Assembly: GCF_021590045.1 (NCBI RefSeq)
Contig: NZ_CP062221.1
Span: 62,001-126,000, forward strand
Direction of reading: 5' to 3'
DNA: 64,000 bases
From: Cellulomonas palmilytica
Lineage (GTDB): Bacteria; Actinomycetota; Actinomycetes; Actinomycetales; Cellulomonadaceae
The notes below the pieces were generated by a model that had not been told where the DNA came from, searched no databases, and saw nothing but the letters and a program-made list of their open reading frames with translations. Both the position numbers and the translations under genes were made by a program. This document shows positions 1 through 20,732 of this stretch, in pieces; the stretch's first letter is position 1, and every line of letters starts with the position of its first letter.

Positions 1-779
1 AGCAGCTCGCGCTGCGCGACGGCCTCGTCGAGCGAGGTGGCCTGCAGGCGGACGACGTCCGCGTGCCGCGCGGCGAGCGTGAGCGCCGCGTCGCTCGTCG
101 CGCGCACGACGACCGGCGGTCGGCCCTGCGGCGGGCGCGGCGTGATCGACGGGCCCTTCACCCGGAACCTGATGCCCTCGTAGTCGACGTAGTGCAGCTT
201 CTCCCGGTCGACGAACCGACCCGTCGCGACGTCGCGGATCTCCGCGTCGTCCTCCCACGAGTCCCACAGCCGGCCGACGACGTCGATCACGTCGCCCGCC
301 TCGTCGACCGCGTCCGCCTCGTCCTGCACGCCCTTGCGACCGAACGCGCGGGCGGCCTCCGGCGTCGTCGACCAGCCCACGCCCCACGCCGCGCGGCCGC
401 GGCTCACGTGGTCGATCGTCGCGACGGCCTTCGACACGTGGAACGGCTCGGTGTGCGTCGTGTCGATCGTCGGGACGAGGCCGATCCCCGCGCTGCGCGG
501 CGCGAGGCGGGACGCGACGAGCGCCGCGTCGAGCCGGCCCTGCGCGCCGTGGCGCTGCACGGGCTGCAGCGAGAACGCGTCGTCGAGCACGACGAGGTCG
601 AGCAGGCCGCGCTGCGCGGTCGCGACGAGGGACGCGAGGCGCTGCGCGTCGAACAGCCGCTGCGCCTGCGAGCCCAGGTCACGCCAGGCGGCGGGGTGCG
701 CGCCGGCGTCGGTGAGGTCGACGCCCAGGTGCACCGAGGGTGCGCTCAGGTCGGTCCGGTGGCGGTGGTGCTGCGACAT
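1..779 (-). CDS. LLM-class flavin-dependent monooxygenase (NtaA/SnaA/DszA-like), C-terminus outside window
   Basis: 259 N-terminal residues are visible and the 3' end lies left of base 1. The fold is the bacterial luciferase-like barrel. The order SLVATAQRGLLDLVVLDDAF, then a segment reading TIDHVSRGRAAWGVGWSTTP, is the usual NtaA/SnaA/DszA pattern, where the second segment is normally GRxGWNxVTS. Such FMNH2-dependent enzymes often desulfonate or oxidise organosulfur compounds. The ATG at 779 follows GGAG at about 8 nt. The upstream leader carries a SAM-IV riboswitch and a Cys-rich small ORF, which strongly suggests a role in sulfur scavenging. The substrate cannot be named. The flavin reductase partner is not in the window. 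Confidence 0.85.
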   Translation of the reverse strand, partial: MSQHHRHRTDLSAPSVHLGVDLTDAGAHPAAWRDLGSQAQRLFDAQRLASLVATAQRGLLDLVVLDDAFSLQPVQRHGAQGRLDAALVASRLAPRSAGIGLVPTIDTTHTEPFHVSKAVATIDHVSRGRAAWGVGWSTTPEAARAFGRKGVQDEADAVDEAGDVIDVVGRLWDSWEDDAEIRDVATGRFVDREKLHYVDYEGIRFRVKGPSITPRPPQGRPPVVVRATSDAALTLAARHADVVRLQATSLDEAVAQREL

Positions 780-1152: not shown

Positions 1153-1210
1153 GGGCTCGTCTCCCTCGGTCCGCTGCGTTGCCGGACGGCGGGGTTTCGC
1201 CGTCCGACCA

Positions 1211-1288
1211 GGTCCTCACCCGGGGCACCCCGCCGCGCGGGAGGGTTGCCGTCCGACCAGCCGGGGCTACGCGTCGGAGCTCATGACC
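1211..1288 (-). ncRNA. SAM-IV riboswitch
   Basis: Read on the minus strand, the element begins GGTCATGAG, continues with a GCCCCGGCTGG segment and the conserved CGGCAACCCTCC, and closes with GGGGTGCCCCGGGTGAGGACC. These match the SAM-IV class of actinomycetes, and GGTC/GACC forms the closing stem P1. A nearly identical element lies at 18761-18838. It sits about 60 nt upstream of the Cys-rich leader peptide and controls the same transcript as the LLM monooxygenase. AT-rich sequence just upstream (1289-1345) probably holds the promoter. Confidence 0.85.
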
Positions 1289-1450: not shown

Positions 1451-1575
1451 GACCGGGGTTGCTCCGGCGTCGACCGGTCAGAGCCGGAGCAACCGCGGGG
1501 TCGGCGGAGGAGACATCGCCGAGACCGTCGTCGCTCCGGCTCTGGGGTCACGGAACCGGAGGAAGCGCGGGGTCG
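1451..1575. repeat. Two copies of a palindromic TTGCTCCGGC repeat
   Basis: Copies at 1451-1503 and 1523-1575, each about 53 nt. The pattern is GACC(C)CG..TTGCTCCGGC, a variable loop of about 10 nt, GCCGGAGCAAC, then CGGGGTCG. The second copy is degenerate (CGGAGGAAG on its right arm). The same family recurs at 13939-14229 and 20773-20970. Both copies lie 3' of purL and upstream of the sulfur leader. Confidence 0.85.
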
Positions 1576-1598
1576 ACGGCGGGTCGTCGGGACGACGA

Positions 1599-1679: not shown

Positions 1680-4025
1680 TCAGGCGAAGTGGCGCGGGAG
1701 GGTGGCCTCGAAGACCTCGCGGGCCTCGGCCAGCGGGATCGAGAACAGGCCCTCGACCTCGACAGCCGGACCCGCCTCGTCGTCGTCCGTCGCGACGTCC
1801 GCCGTCTGGCCCAGCTTGAGGGCCGGGACGCCGCGCGCGACGCACAGGTCCGCGAACCGCACCTCCTCCGAGCGCGGCACCGCGACGAGCGCTCGGGCCG
1901 TGGACTCGGAGAACAGCGCCTCGAACGGCGTCACGCCGTCGCGCTCGCACAGCGCGTCGAGCGACACCCGCGCACCCACGCCGAACCGCAGCGAGGACTC
2001 GAGCAGCGCCTGGACCAGACCACCCTCGGACAGGTCGTGCGCGGCGTCGACGAGCCCGTCGCGCGCCGCGTTCTGCAGCACCGCGGCCAGCGCGCGCTCG
2101 GCGGCCAGGTCGACCCGCGGCGGCAGGCCGCCGAGGTGGGCGTGCTCGACGTCGGCCCACGCGGAGCCGTCGAGCTCGGCGCGCGTCGTGCCCAGCAGGT
2201 AGACGGACACGCCGGGGGCCGTCCAGCCCGACGGCACGGCCTGCGCGACGTCGTCGAGCACGCCCAGCACGCCGACGACGGGCGTCGGGTGGATGGCGGA
2301 GTCGATCTTCCCGGGCTCGCCCGTGCCGTTGTAGAGCGAGACGTTGCCGCCGGTCACCGGGACCTCGAGCGTCTGGCACGCGTCGGCCAGGCCGCGGATG
2401 GCCTCGACGAGCTGCCACATCGAGTCCGGGTGCTCGGGGCTGCCGAAGTTGAGGCAGTCGGTCACCGCGAGCGGGCGGGCGCCCGTCGTCGCGACGTTGC
2501 GGTACGCCTCGGCGAGCGCGAGCTGCGCGCCCGTGTATGGGTCGAGCTTGCCGTAGCGGCCGTTCGCGTCGGTCGCGAGCGCGACGCCCAGGCCGGTGGC
2601 CTCGTCGACGCGGACGACGCCCGAGTCGTCGGGCTGCGCGAGGGCCGTGTTGCCCTGCACGAACCGGTCGTACTGCTTGGTCACCCACTCCTTGGACGCG
2701 AGGTTGGGCGAGCCGAGCAGGCGCAGCGCGGTCGCGCGCAGCTCGTCGGGGCTCGTCGGACGCGCGAGCGACGCGGAGGTGTCGGCGTTCAGCCCGTCCT
2801 GCCACGCGGGACGCGCGTAGGGACGGTCGTACACCGGGCCCTCGTGCGCGACCGTCTTCGGGTCGACGTCGACGATGCGGTGGCCGTGGTGGTCGATCGT
2901 GAGGCGGCCGGTGCCGGTGACCTCGCCGATGATCGCGGTCTCGACGTCCCACTTCGAGGTGATCGCGAGGAACTCGTCCAGCTTGGCGGGCGAGACGACC
3001 GCCATCATCCGCTCCTGCGACTCCGACATGAGGATCTCGCCGGCGGTCAGCGTGGGGTCGCGCAGCAGCACGTTCTCGAGGTCGACGTGCATGCCGCCGT
3101 CACCATTGGAGGCGAGCTCGCTCGTCGCGCACGAGATGCCCGCGGCGCCCAGGTCCTGGATGCCCTCGACGACGCGCGCGGCGTACAGCTCGAGGCAGCA
3201 CTCGATGAGCACCTTCTCCATGAACGGGTCGCCGACCTGCACCGACGGGCGCTTGGACGGCTTGGTGTCGTCGAACGTCTCGGAGGCGAGGATCGACGCG
3301 CCGCCGATGCCGTCGCCGCCCGTGCGCGCGCCGAACAGCACGACCTTGTTGCCCGTGCCGGACGCGTTGGCCAGGTGGATGTCCTCGTGCCGCAGCACGC
3401 CCAGGCACAGGGCGTTGACGAGCGGGTTGCCCTGGTAGCAGGGGTCGAACACGAGCTCGCCGCCGATGTTCGGCAGGCCGAGCGAGTTGCCGTACCCGCC
3501 GACGCCCGCGACGACGCCGTGCACCACGCGGGCGGTGTCCGGGTGGTCGACCGCGCCGAACCGCAGCTGGTCCATGACGGCGACGGGGCGCGCACCCATC
3601 GAGATGATGTCGCGCACGATGCCGCCGACGCCCGTGGCCGCGCCCTGGTACGGCTCGACGTACGACGGGTGGTTGTGGGACTCGACCTTGAACGTCACCG
3701 CCCAGCCGTCGCCGATGTCGACGACGCCCGCGTTCTCGCCGATGCCGACGAGCAGGTGCTCCTTCATCGCCGGCGTGGTCTTGTCCCCGAACTGGCGCAG
3801 GTGCGTCTTGGAGGACTTGTACGAGCAGTGCTCGGACCACATGACGGAGTACATCGCGAGCTCGGCGGCGGTGGGCCGGCGGCCGAGGATGTCCCGGATG
3901 CGCTGGTACTCGTCGGGCTTGAGACCGAGCTCCGCGTACGGCTGCTCGAGGTCGGGGGTCGCCGCGGCGTCCTCGACGGTGTCGTAGTGCTGGTCGCTGC
4001 TGGGGCGCGCGGGTGCGGAGGTCAT
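1680..4025 (-). CDS. purL: Phosphoribosylformylglycinamidine synthase subunit PurL
   Basis: 781 aa, the size of the small-type PurL that works with PurQ and PurS. It uses ATP and ammonia delivered by PurQ to convert FGAR to FGAM, step 4 of de novo purine synthesis. [11 protein letters not shown] (about residues 63-73) and KVESHNHPS (about 113-121) are the hallmark ATP-binding and substrate-binding segments, and the GGDGIGGAS glycine-rich stretch follows. ATG 4025 has AAGGGAAC just upstream, and an in-frame extension further upstream lacks family similarity. purQ and purS lie some 22 kb away on the same strand, so the three subunits are not co-transcribed. Confidence 0.97.
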
Positions 4026-17263: not shown

Positions 17264-18685
17264 TCAGTCCAGCGCGGGGCCGCACGCGGCCGCGGCGGTC
17301 GCGGCCAGGTGGTCCAGGCCGTGCACCGCGAGCAGCGGACGCGTGTCGTCGACGACCGCCCAGCAGCCGTCCTCGATCGCGTACCGCGAGCGCGGCCCGT
17401 CCGTGACGTAGGCGTGCAGCGCGGCGACGAGCCGGTCGACCGCCTCGCTCGGCGTCCCGACACCCACCGACGCGCGGATCGCGCCGTTGCTCGCCCCCAG
17501 GCGCGTGAGCAGCGGGTGCGCGCAGAACCGACCGTCGCGCACACCGATGCCGTGCTCCGCGGCGAGGTACGCCGCGACGAGGCCTGGGTCGTGGCCCTCG
17601 ACGGTGAACGTCACGACGCCCACCGGCTCGGCCGAGTCCGGCCAGATGCTCGCGACCCGCACGCCCGGCACCTGCTCGAGACCCGCGACGAGCCGCGAGC
17701 GCAGCGCCTGCTCGTGCGCGACGAGCGCGCCGTCGGGCAGCGCCGCGAGCGCGTCGCACGCCTGGGCGAGCGCGATCGCGCCGATGACGTTGGGCGACCC
17801 GGCCTCGTGGCGCGCCGGGGCCGGCTGCCACACCGTCCGATCGGTCCGCACGTCGCGCACCGCACCTCCCCCTGCGAGGTACGGCGTGCCCGTGTCGAGC
17901 CAGTCGCGGCGGCCGACGAGCGCGCCCGCGCCGAACGGCGCGTAGATCTTGTGGCCGGAGAACACGACGTAGTCGGCGCCCGAGCGCGCGAGCGAGAAGC
18001 CGCGGTGCGGGACCAGCTGGGCCCCGTCGACCGCGACGCGCGCCCCCGCGGCGTGCGCGATCTCGACGACCTGCTCGACGGGCAGCGCCTCGCCCGTGAC
18101 GTTGGACGCCCCCGAGACCGTGACCAGCGCGTACGGCCGCGCGGCGAGCTCGGTGCGCAGCGACTCGAGCGTCGCCGCGACCGTCTCGGCGATCGGCAGG
18201 ATCGTCGTGCGACGGCCCTGCGGGTCGGACGAGCGCAGCCACGGCAGCAGGTTCGCGTGGTGCTCGAGGTCGAGCACCAGGACGCGCTCGCCGGCGGGCA
18301 CGACGCCCGCGAGCAGGTTGAGCGAGTCGGTGGTGTTGCGCGTGATGATCGCGACGTCGTCCTCGCGCGCGTCGACGAACCGCGCGATCGTCTGCCGCGC
18401 GGACTCGTACAGCGCGGTCGACACCTGCGAGAGGTACCCCGCGCCGCGGTGCACCGACGCGTACAGCGGCAGCACCTCCGCGACCCGGTCGGCCACGGCC
18501 TGCAGCGCCGGGGCGCTCGCCGCGTAGTCGAGGTTCGCGTAGACGCGCTGCGTGCCGTCGACGAGCGGCACCGTGGTGCTGGCGCCGACCACCGGCAGCA
18601 GGGGCTCCACGGCGCCCGCCGGGGTCGTCGTCGGGGTCGTCGCACCCGTCGTCGGACAGGACGTCGTCTCGGCCAGAGCGGTCAC
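17264..18685 (-). CDS. Class V aminotransferase-fold PLP enzyme (cysteine desulfurase-like)
   Basis: 473 aa from GTG 18685, which has GGAGG 7 nt upstream. The PLP fold is complete: SGASNVTGEALP, the Asp/Gln pair in VAVDGAQLVPHRG, the Schiff-base Lys in YVVFSGHKIYAPFGAGAL, and RHEAGSPNVIGAIAL. It resembles CsdA/isopenicillin-N-epimerase relatives rather than the housekeeping IscS/SufS, and no Fe-S assembly genes are adjacent. A SAM-IV riboswitch in its leader ties it to sulfur amino-acid metabolism. Cys desulfuration or a lyase reaction is likely, but the substrate cannot be assigned. The N-terminal 50 residues are poorly conserved and acidic/Thr-rich. Confidence 0.85.
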   Translation of the reverse strand: MTALAETTSCPTTGATTPTTTPAGAVEPLLPVVGASTTVPLVDGTQRVYANLDYAASAPALQAVADRVAEVLPLYASVHRGAGYLSQVSTALYESARQTIARFVDAREDDVAIITRNTTDSLNLLAGVVPAGERVLVLDLEHHANLLPWLRSSDPQGRRTTILPIAETVAATLESLRTELAARPYALVTVSGASNVTGEALPVEQVVEIAHAAGARVAVDGAQLVPHRGFSLARSGADYVVFSGHKIYAPFGAGALVGRRDWLDTGTPYLAGGGAVRDVRTDRTVWQPAPARHEAGSPNVIGAIALAQACDALAALPDGALVAHEQALRSRLVAGLEQVPGVRVASIWPDSAEPVGVVTFTVEGHDPGLVAAYLAAEHGIGVRDGRFCAHPLLTRLGASNGAIRASVGVGTPSEAVDRLVAALHAYVTDGPRSRYAIEDGCWAVVDDTRPLLAVHGLDHLAATAAAACGPALD

Positions 18686-18760
18686 GGGGGTACCTCCGTG
18701 GGTCCGGGGACTCCGGGGTCGGGCGTCCCGCGCTTGCCGTCACCGGTCGGTGCACGGCCT

Positions 18761-18838
18761 GGTCGTCACCCGGGGCACCCCACCGCGGAGGAGGGTTGCC
18801 GGCCAGCGAGCCGGGGCTTCGCGCTGGCACTCATGACC
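18761..18838 (-). ncRNA. SAM-IV riboswitch
   Basis: The minus strand reads GGTCATGAGTGCCAGCGC, then GCCCCGGCTCGCTGGC, CGGCAACCCTCC, and GGGGTGCCCCGGGTGACGACC. This is a very close match to the SAM-IV pattern, including the pseudoknot-forming and closing-stem segments. It ends about 75 nt before the GTG of the class V aminotransferase. A consensus -35 TTGACA lies on the minus strand at 18877-18872. High SAM should lower expression. Confidence 0.92.
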
Positions 18839-18960
18839 TGACCGAAAGGGTGACGAGCCGGACGAGCGGCTGTCAACGCAGACGCGCGTCCGTCTCGTCA
18901 CACGGGACGGTGTGTCCACGAGGTGGATACCTGCGGCGGACCGGCGTTAGTCTCCTCGCA

Positions 18961-19053
18961 CCATCCAGAGCGGCCGAGAGATCTGGCTCGACGACGCCGC
19001 AGCAACCCGCAGGCCCCGCGCCTGGCCGAGGGTGCTACCGCCAGGACCGATGG
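18961..19053 (+). ncRNA. SAM-I (S-box) riboswitch
   Basis: The element opens with CCATC, then AGAGCGGCCGAGAGATCTGG (the AGAGnGGnnGAGGGAnnGG region), GCAGCAACC (GGCAACC region) and GGTGCTACCGCCAG (GGTGCnAAnnCC), and closes with GATGG as P1. P1's 3' strand runs into the Shine-Dalgarno GGAGGAG (19052-19058) of the rhodanese gene. A possible -10, TAGTCT, is at 18948-18953. It controls the rhodanese-metZ operon. Confidence 0.88.
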
Positions 19054-19062
19054 AGGAGCGAC

Positions 19063-19482
19063 ATGGCCGAACCCTACGCAGGCGACCTCACCCCGCAGGA
19101 GGCCTGGGACCTCGTGACGTCCGACGAGCGCGCGCTGCTCGTCGACGTGCGCACCGAGGCCGAGTGGCAGCAGATCGGCGTCCCGGACGCCGCCGACGCC
19201 GACGACCGCGCCGCGTTCGTCCAGTGGCTGACCCCCGCCGGGCCCAACCCCACGTTCCTCGACGAGCTCGCGGCCACCGGGCTGCAGCCCGGCGACGGCC
19301 GGCCCGTGGTGTTCCTGTGCCGCTCGGGCGTCCGCTCCGTGGCCGCCGCACAGGCCGCGACCGCTGCCGGCTACGGCCCCGCCTACAACGTGCTGCGCGG
19401 GTTCGAGGGCGACGTCGGACCCGACGGGCAGCGCGGCCACTGGGGCTGGCGCGCCGAGGGTCTGCCCTGGCGGCAGGCGTGA
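19063..19482 (+). CDS. Rhodanese-like sulfurtransferase
   Basis: 139 aa, a single rhodanese domain. The active-site loop is FLCRSGVRS, with Cys carrying the persulfide, and DVRTEAEW is the N-terminal rhodanese signature. ATG 19063 follows GGAGGAG, which overlaps the S-box P1 stem. It overlaps metZ by 4 nt, so sulfide or persulfide handling and homocysteine formation are co-translated. A plausible role is supplying sulfide/persulfide to MetZ; this is inference from the operon. Confidence 0.9.
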   Translation: MAEPYAGDLTPQEAWDLVTSDERALLVDVRTEAEWQQIGVPDAADADDRAAFVQWLTPAGPNPTFLDELAATGLQPGDGRPVVFLCRSGVRSVAAAQAATAAGYGPAYNVLRGFEGDVGPDGQRGHWGWRAEGLPWRQA

Positions 19483-20732
19483 GCGCGCACGTCCCGGGCC
19501 CCGGCGACTGGGACTCCCGGCGCGTCGAGCGCTCGACGCTGCGCCCCGACACGCTCGCGGTGCGCGGCGGTCAGGTCCGCTCGCAGTTCGGCGAGTTCGG
19601 CGAGGCCCTGTTCCTCACCCAGGGCTTCACGTACGACTCCGCGGGCCAGGCCGAGGCCGCGTTCGCGGGCGAGGTCGACCGGTTCCTGTACTCGCGCTAC
19701 AACAACCCGACCGTCTCGACGTTCGAGGAGCGCCTGCGGCTGCTCGACGGGGCCGAGGCCTGCTACGCCACGGCCACCGGCATGAGCGCGGTGTTCACGG
19801 CGCTCGCCGCGCTCGTCGGGTCCGGGTCGCGCATCGTCGCGGCGCGCGCGCTGTTCGGGTCGAGCGTCGTGATCTTCGACGAGATCCTCGCCCGGTGGGG
19901 CGTGCGCACCGACTACGTCGACGGCCACGTGCTCTCCCAGTGGGAGGAGGCGCTCGCGACCCCGGCCGACGTCGTGTTCTTCGAGACGCCGTCCAACCCG
20001 ATGCAGGACCTCGTCGACATCGAGGCCGTCTCGCGCCTCGCGCACGCCGCCGGCGCGGTCGTCGTCGTCGACAACGTATTCGCGACGCCCGTGTTCTCCC
20101 GACCGCTCGACCTGGGCGCGGACGTGGTCGTGTACTCCGCGACCAAGCACATCGACGGGCAGGGCCGTGTGCTCGGCGGCGCGATCCTCGGCTCGTCGGA
20201 CTTCGTCAACGGACCCGTCCAGACGCTCGTCCGCAACACCGGGCCGTCGCTGTCGCCGTTCAACGCGTGGGTGCTGCTCAAGGGCCTCGAGACGCTGTCG
20301 ATCCGCGTGCGGCACCAGGCCGCGTCCGCGCTCACGCTCGCGCGCTGGCTCGAGTCCCACCCGGCGGTCGAGTCCGTGCGCTACCCGTTCCTCGAGTCGC
20401 ACCCGCAGCACGACCTCGCGCTGCGGCAGCAGACCGGCGGCGGGACGGTCGTGACGTTCACGCTCCGCACGCCCGACGGCGCGACGCCCGAGCTCGCGAA
20501 GAAGACGACGTTCGGCGTGCTCGACGCGCTGCGCATCATCGACATCTCCAACAACCTGGGCGACGCGAAGTCGATCGTCACGCACCCCGCCACGACGACG
20601 CACCGCAAGCTCGGCCCCGAGGGTCGCGCGAAGGTCGGCATCGGCGAGGCCACGGTCCGCTTCTCGGTCGGCCTGGAGGACGTCGACGACCTGCGCGAGG
20701 ACCTGGACCAGGCCCTCGCCACCCTCCGCTGA
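19479..20732 (+). CDS. metZ: O-succinylhomoserine sulfhydrylase MetZ
   Basis: 417 aa from GTG 19479 overlapping the rhodanese stop (GTGA). A Cys/Met-metabolism PLP enzyme: YSRYNNPT near residue 67, TGMSAVFTAL, the PLP Lys in VYSATKHIDGQGRVLGG, and the C-terminal ATTTHRKLGPEGRA region. It forms homocysteine directly from an activated homoserine and sulfide. MetZ and MetY differ in acyl donor and loop length; the roughly 400-residue size and motif set favour MetZ. Expression should follow the S-box. Confidence 0.92.
   Translation: MSAHVPGPGDWDSRRVERSTLRPDTLAVRGGQVRSQFGEFGEALFLTQGFTYDSAGQAEAAFAGEVDRFLYSRYNNPTVSTFEERLRLLDGAEACYATATGMSAVFTALAALVGSGSRIVAARALFGSSVVIFDEILARWGVRTDYVDGHVLSQWEEALATPADVVFFETPSNPMQDLVDIEAVSRLAHAAGAVVVVDNVFATPVFSRPLDLGADVVVYSATKHIDGQGRVLGGAILGSSDFVNGPVQTLVRNTGPSLSPFNAWVLLKGLETLSIRVRHQAASALTLARWLESHPAVESVRYPFLESHPQHDLALRQQTGGGTVVTFTLRTPDGATPELAKKTTFGVLDALRIIDISNNLGDAKSIVTHPATTTHRKLGPEGRAKVGIGEATVRFSVGLEDVDDLREDLDQALATLR

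Follow-up and report, generated by a model that had tools for sequence, protein, structure and literature searches.

A SAM-IV and a P4-less SAM-I riboswitch back to back in a divergent promoter region of Cellulomonas palmilytica

Why should a single divergent promoter region carry two classes of riboswitch for the same ligand? Within the window, by which we denote the whole analysed stretch of 64,000 nucleotides of Cellulomonas palmilytica DNA, a SAM-IV element on the minus strand lies upstream of the gene for a class V PLP enzyme and a SAM-I element (S-box) on the plus strand lies upstream of rhodanese-metZ (Table 1). The sequence-only reading of this DNA had described two SAM riboswitch classes facing away from each other about 120 bp apart, with these genes on either side, and had named the Rfam SAM and SAM-IV covariance models as a check. 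Both elements score above their gathering cut-offs in a cmscan of the whole window, the gap is 119 bp, and Pfam and NCBIfam matches bear out the gene calls, confirming that the back-to-back arrangement is real. The span given in that reading, which starts at 18761, omits the last 36 nt of the minus-strand SAM-IV aptamer.

Table 1. Features of the divergent region and its flanking genes (positions in the window).
Feature	Position	Strand	Evidence or remark
SufS-like class V PLP enzyme (Aminotran_5)	17264..18685	-	PF00266 281.9 bits; TIGR01979 290.1 versus cut-off 475.1 (below NCBIfam SufS cut-off)
Leader, 39 nt, SAM-IV aptamer to class V start	18686..18724	-	GTG start at 18685; SD GGAGG 18693-18697
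SAM-IV aptamer (RF00634): P1-P3, P5, PK-1, PK-2	18725..18838	-	Rfam 109.2 bits, E 3.2e-19, gathering score 38; pair counts, 77 matches (74 distinct)
Inter-aptamer region, 119 bp, both promoters expected here	18839..18957		aptamer positions
-10-like CACCCT, 18 bp from TTGACA	18847..18852	-	motif by eye, position only
-35-like TTGACA, class V side, conserved in relatives (putative)	18871..18876	-	motif
Imperfect palindrome CCGTCTCG-N5-CGGGACGG between the promoters	18890..18910		possible shared operator (putative)
-35-like GTGGAT, rhodanese-metZ side, weak	18923..18928	+	motif by eye, position only
-10-like TAGTCT, rhodanese-metZ side	18948..18953	+	motif by eye, position only
SAM-I (S-box) aptamer (RF00162), P4-less subtype	18958..19056	+	Rfam 50.6 bits, E 1.2e-08, gathering cut-off 44.4; pair counts including PK-1, 77 matches (70 distinct)
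P1 3' strand GATGG	19049..19053	+	pairs with CCATC 18961-18965
Rhodanese SD GGAGG, 2-nt overlap with P1 3' strand	19052..19056	+	pattern scan; start codon 19063
Rhodanese-domain protein	19063..19482	+	PF00581 43.4 bits
MetZ, O-succinylhomoserine sulfhydrylase	19506..20732	+	NF005870 720.9 bits, cut-off 618

The divergent pair and its conservation

Three Rfam matches in the window exceed the gathering cut-offs, two to SAM-IV and one to SAM-I, the S-box with a margin of 6 bits. The whole genome (3.83 Mb) holds five SAM-IV, two SAM-I and no SAM-I/IV (RF01725) matches at E 0.001. This rules out that the plus-strand element is a SAM-I/IV riboswitch and, with so few SAM-IV and SAM-I elements present, makes their adjacency by chance unlikely by our estimate. 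The second SAM-I precedes metF. Targets of the other SAM-IV elements are an NtaA/DmoA-like monooxygenase, an SsuE-like FMN reductase and an aminotransferase-like protein (all below NCBIfam cut-offs) and, for the fifth, a protein without a family match. The second SAM-IV element of the window (1173-1288, minus strand, 86.5 bits) lies upstream of an NtaA/DmoA-like FMN-dependent monooxygenase gene (264.2 bits, cut-off 279.7). A SAM-IV element of 77.3 bits (L004, 1501-1618; G000:C1:2347044-2347161) lies upstream of the gene for a 252-aa protein (start by eye), which adjoins a SufU-like gene (by eye) and whose product has no NCBIfam match at E 1e-6 and no Pfam match at E 1e-5.

Using ten class V homologues as query and keeping the best 80 of 565 loci, we found that 75 of the 80 have a SAM-IV in front of the class V gene, the exceptions being loci of Leifsonia, a Microbacteriaceae MAG, Cryobacterium, Klugiella and Glaciihabitans; 51 of these 75 have no metZ within the 3 kb examined, and 19 of 20 loci sampled at class level likewise carry SAM-IV before this gene. 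Rhodanese-metZ lies on the other side in 24 of the best 80 (tblastn), from seven genera (Cellulomonas, Cellulosimicrobium, Sanguibacter, Isoptericola, Promicromonospora, Myceligenerans and Xylanimonas) that we take to be grouped as Cellulomonadaceae in GTDB. Both switches are present in all 24, the S-box preceding rhodanese-metZ in each, with inter-aptamer distances of 83-188 bp in 17 loci and 725-1354 bp in seven. Among the remaining 56 loci an S-box occurs once, in Nocardia carnea before a 2OG-Fe(II) oxygenase-like gene (L124, the same locus as L061 and L194). Starting from the S-box instead, the best-scoring 30 loci of 150 family genomes comprise 17 with rhodanese-metZ (one, L036, counted by its rhodanese only, the locus being incomplete), all 17 with a divergent SAM-IV; no SAM-IV was found within 1.5 kb of the other 13 (11 metF, two unassigned) or of the best 30 S-box loci of other Actinomycetes. 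The two locus sets overlap in part (L019 equals L069, and L030 equals L079 over 200 nt). Judged by these sequence comparisons, the divergent SAM-IV/SAM-I arrangement is conserved in related bacteria.

Expression platforms on the two sides

Both aptamers show covariation. Among 77 matches each to SAM-I (70 distinct) and SAM-IV (74 distinct), 99.3% and 98.0% of cells were paired versus 93.6% and 91.4% in shuffles, and both sides change in 10 of 24 and 18 of 38 pairs, respectively; fitting both alignments to the helices of the models biases the helix figures in favour of the structure, and the pseudoknot pairs lie outside the models. For SAM-I, the pairs with changes on both sides include three of the five in PK-1, in which 97.7% of cells are paired, and slid controls drop to 26-52%. 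For SAM-IV, PK-2 (P3 loop and 3' tail) is paired in 98.0% of cells, with double changes in one of its four pairs and two invariant, and the P5 helices are paired in 92.4 and 92.9%, with double changes in seven of nine pairs. Possessing PK-2 and the P5 stem, lacking P4 and matching RF00634 over its full length, the minus-strand element shows no aptamer differences of note from SAM-IV. The S-box shares with RF00162 P1, a two-part P2 with the conserved K-turn G-A positions, P3, PK-1 and the core, which is invariant across 19 aligned sequences, and differs from it in lacking P4 and in its first P3 pair, which is A-U in 67 of the 70 distinct rows versus g-c in the Rfam consensus.

On the plus strand, P1 overlaps the SD of the rhodanese gene, which implies direct blocking of translation. 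This placement on the 3' side of P1 is as described for SAM-I (PMC2258182). Across the 77 S-box matches the SD, assigned here and in the SAM-IV leaders by a simple pattern, overlaps P1 in 62 and follows it in 11, none being found in the other four. In Sanguibacter loci L030/L079 (same sequence), L084 and L091 the P1 3' strand begins 9-15 nt before the SD does; direct blocking is therefore unworkable there as drawn, and the platform must differ.

The minus-strand leader is 39 nt long, versus a median of 38 nt in 61 SAM-IV leaders with an identified SD, and its GTCCC (18707-18711) could pair with GGGAC (18725-18729), the 3' end of the aptamer. An exact complement to the last five aptamer bases occurs within the next 40 nt of its own leader in 43 of 77 cases, versus 17.4 in permutations, and in 8 of 17 versus 2.5 when each tail class is counted once (permutation P 0.0002); for the tail class of the window (GGGAC, three members) the difference is slight, 0.67 in own versus 0.55 in other leaders. 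The tail-leader duplex is no stronger in energy than in shuffled leaders (mean z +0.36; the 60 of 77 matches with a usable SD). In 44 of 60 leaders, and in 21 of the 23 from the Cellulomonadaceae set, the best pairing partner of the aptamer end and that of the SD share at least 4 nt of the leader, both being counts without a shuffled control. In the window this overlap is 0 and the SD-helix z is -0.5; the class V SD is predicted to pair with the start codon in a hairpin lying clear of the GUCCC element. In relatives, covariation thus supports an alternative helix in the SAM-IV leader; in this window it is only suggested, and the leader of the window is a poor example of it.

We consider it very probable that the locus comprises two independent SAM-sensing OFF switches on back-to-back promoters, the S-box acting by blocking an RBS and the SAM-IV element through its leader, and that the two sides have differing histories. 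On the plus strand, SAM binding would fold the P4-less S-box (its fold and SD position are observed, its dependence on SAM presumed), and the closed P1, whose 3' strand holds the first two SD bases, would directly hide the RBS of rhodanese-metZ. On the minus strand, the SAM-IV element would control the class V gene through the 39-nt leader: SAM may stabilise P1 and PK-2 and so keep the aptamer 3' end off the downstream GUCCC, leaving the RBS available for sequestration, and premature ending of the transcript may add to this control. High SAM would then mean less homocysteine synthesis by MetZ and less class V enzyme.

A possible alternative, to which we give appreciably less credence, is that the two sides act at different levels, the S-box blocking translation and the SAM-IV leader ending transcription early (Rho-dependent or by processing), with differing kinetics or SAM thresholds. 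In Streptomyces clavuligerus a premature transcription unit at a class V PLP gene, a SAM-IV target thus already in print, was predicted as SAM-IV and its read-ratio decrease is described as among the most extreme (PMC8269248), which points to control at the transcript level. Leader layouts also differ between the two sides of our locus. Premature 3' ends can, however, also follow from untranslated mRNA, and a scan of 18600-19120 detected no intrinsic terminator on either side, TTTT being present in only 3 of the 77 SAM-IV leader stretches examined. The suggestion of the sequence-only reading that the pair contrasts transcriptional with translational control therefore finds no support in the sequence: there is no terminator, the S-box looks translational, and an RBS hairpin is predicted in the SAM-IV leader.

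It is also conceivable, but unlikely in our view, that the main control comes from a protein regulator at the common promoter region, with the riboswitches fine-tuning it. A scan revealed no consensus sigma-70 promoter, and the promoter-like motifs of Table 1 were instead read from conservation, TTGAC[AG] being found in 23 of 25 upstream regions versus 1.5 in shuffles. Between the family promoters GTCTC/GAGAC is enriched 3-fold (33 occurrences in 25 upstream regions versus 10.9, sd 3.2, in shuffles; 22 of 25 regions versus 9.1), whereas class V regions from other taxa show no such enrichment (7 of 26 versus 6.9). Against such a regulator, the family sequences share their ancestry, the motif is a short one, a binding protein is putative only, and there is little enrichment upstream of metF (7 versus 4.8) or of the other four SAM-IV elements of the genome (2 versus 1.1).

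A SAM-I aptamer without P4

In the Rfam alignment, 18 model positions of the P4 region are skipped against 2 nt of the window S-box. As the P4 helix, which belongs to the SAM-I fold as described, is absent, we file this element as a P4-less variant of SAM-I and not as a standard member. An insertion hiding P4 is ruled out, as GGTGC and the P1 GATG are separated by only 11-13 nt in the measured loci, and a PK-2 substituting for P4 was rejected because inspection of the P3 loops by eye showed no constant complementarity with the 3' tail.

The variant is shared by relatives. In the sets of best-scoring S-boxes, which comprise top-scoring loci only, all 30 from the 150 family genomes lack P4 and all 30 from other Actinomycetes possess it: GGTGC is followed by 20-21 nt in the family (six loci by eye) versus 32-43 nt with a hairpin in the others. 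Family tails of 27 or 33 nt reflect an earlier GGTGC or a longer match and lack P4 by eye. Searching 394 class genomes with a P4-less model (R1) and keeping the 30 best-scoring loci, we found no P4 in the 19 inspected loci scoring at least 64 bits (L178-L196) or in a single locus at 60.5 bits, whereas the seven inspected loci at or below 59 bits (L197-L203) have P4. Since P4-bearing L197 reaches E 8.8e-13 with R1, the E-value alone is no proof that P4 is absent. At E 1e-12, R1 matches 93 of 198 genomes of the order, with a maximum of 13 per genome, and 17 of 296 in the phylum sample; models R1 and R2 were trained partly on loci that were later re-found. Of 33 order and phylum loci, 32 could be read by script and all 32 lack P4 (L225 was not located), as do the seven remaining phylum matches (60-63 bits) and the weakest order match (in G812); in the set of 11 loci that includes these, two (L241 and L244) were read by eye.

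Two further observations concern the same searches. Genome G865 (f117 g353) has 13 R1 matches, and the other listed genomes of its genus have 5-12. The seven P4-bearing S-boxes L197-L203 precede threonine-synthase-like genes (inspected by eye, with a family match for one N-terminal stretch), and SAM control of the threonine branch through P4-bearing S-boxes is possible.

That the S-box is a degenerate aptamer which no longer senses SAM, leaving SAM-IV as the only functional switch, is highly improbable: it would fit the low Rfam score and the loss of P4, but the invariant core, the double changes, the SD kept at P1 and the recurrence of R1 matches, P4-less where inspected, across nearly half of the genomes of the order form a pattern that looks like selection rather than decay.

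Related aptamers with probably separate histories

With two independent SAM-sensing switches as the preferred reading, the question remains why their classes differ. The claim that one metabolite is read here by two unrelated RNA folds does not hold, as both families belong to Rfam clan CL00012 and have the SAM-binding core in common (PMC6890682). According to the cryo-EM study of SAM-IV, the core shared by SAM-I, SAM-I/IV and SAM-IV consists of two parallel coaxial domains around the ligand, SAM-IV being without P4 and gaining a PK-2 linked to P5 (PMC6890682). SAM-IV and SAM-I are therefore cousins with one binding core. The P2 internal loop of the window S-box is absent from SAM-I/IV (PMC2864571). 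The classes at our locus would differ because the two sides have different histories: SAM-IV accompanies the class V gene in most sampled loci, with or without metZ, and the S-box accompanies rhodanese-metZ (and metF in Cellulomonadaceae), so that the two probably met when the operon came to lie beside the class V gene. One paper reportedly found no evidence for shared descent of the two folds. A division of labour with SAM-I serving methionine and SAM-IV serving scavenging agrees with this genome. It does not hold generally, since in Mycobacterium avium SAM-IV precedes an O-acetylhomoserine sulfhydrylase gene (PMC3774663).

Are mixed pairs preferred over pairs of one class? Joining by hand the positions of 46 matches to the P4-less S-box and 57 to SAM-IV, from 39 genomes of the order, gave four mixed divergent pairs within 400 bp (in the genome studied here, in G042 and two in G831) and no same-class pair. 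As about one in two pairs is expected to be mixed from the class frequencies, the excess is not significant, and with so few pairs we claim no preference. One mixed pair of G831, a member of another family of the order (L249, G831:C401), comprises a SAM-IV (47-161, minus strand) and an S-box (319-405, plus strand) before a rhodanese-like start read by eye, and the pairing may therefore reach beyond Cellulomonadaceae. Elsewhere, L179 has a mixed pair with a gap of 175 at monooxygenase and ABC transporter genes (the ABC protein by family search, the other by eye), and L214 and L224 have mixed pairs with gaps of 100 and 99 at substrate-binding-protein and monooxygenase genes (by eye). Same-class pairs were also seen: L183 has divergent P4-less S-boxes 119 bp apart (1501-1589, minus strand; 1709-1796, plus strand), and L060 has two SAM-IV elements (1956-2073, minus strand; 2175-2291, plus strand) between a class V and an MsnO8-family monooxygenase gene.

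Both aptamer families and direct RBS control by SAM-I are already known. The nearest described systems are the tandem SAM-II/SAM-V and SAM-II/SAM-I/IV arrangements (PMC9481103), in which two SAM classes also act jointly but on one transcript, unlike the two divergent transcripts here; the main text of that paper contains no word starting with "divergent" or "opposite". In the titles and abstract openings that our literature searches listed we found neither a divergent SAM-I/SAM-IV pair nor a P4-less subtype of SAM-I, a scope that does not establish their absence from print.

We put forward as a speculative and rather doubtful proposal that the P4-less S-box is an undescribed SAM-I subtype, widespread in Actinomycetota as a compact unit of aptamer and RBS, and that mixed divergent pairs of SAM-IV and P4-less S-boxes are a recurrent device in which cousin aptamers have different set points. 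If so, sulfur scavenging and methionine synthesis would shut down at different SAM levels. The locus offers a natural side-by-side comparison: related SAM aptamers serve two arms of sulfur metabolism from a single promoter region in the same cell, so that differences in affinity, speed and platform would be measurable against an identical cell background. The loss of P4 from the S-box also raises the question of what this helix does in SAM-I, since many bacteria apparently do without it although they retain the remainder of the fold.
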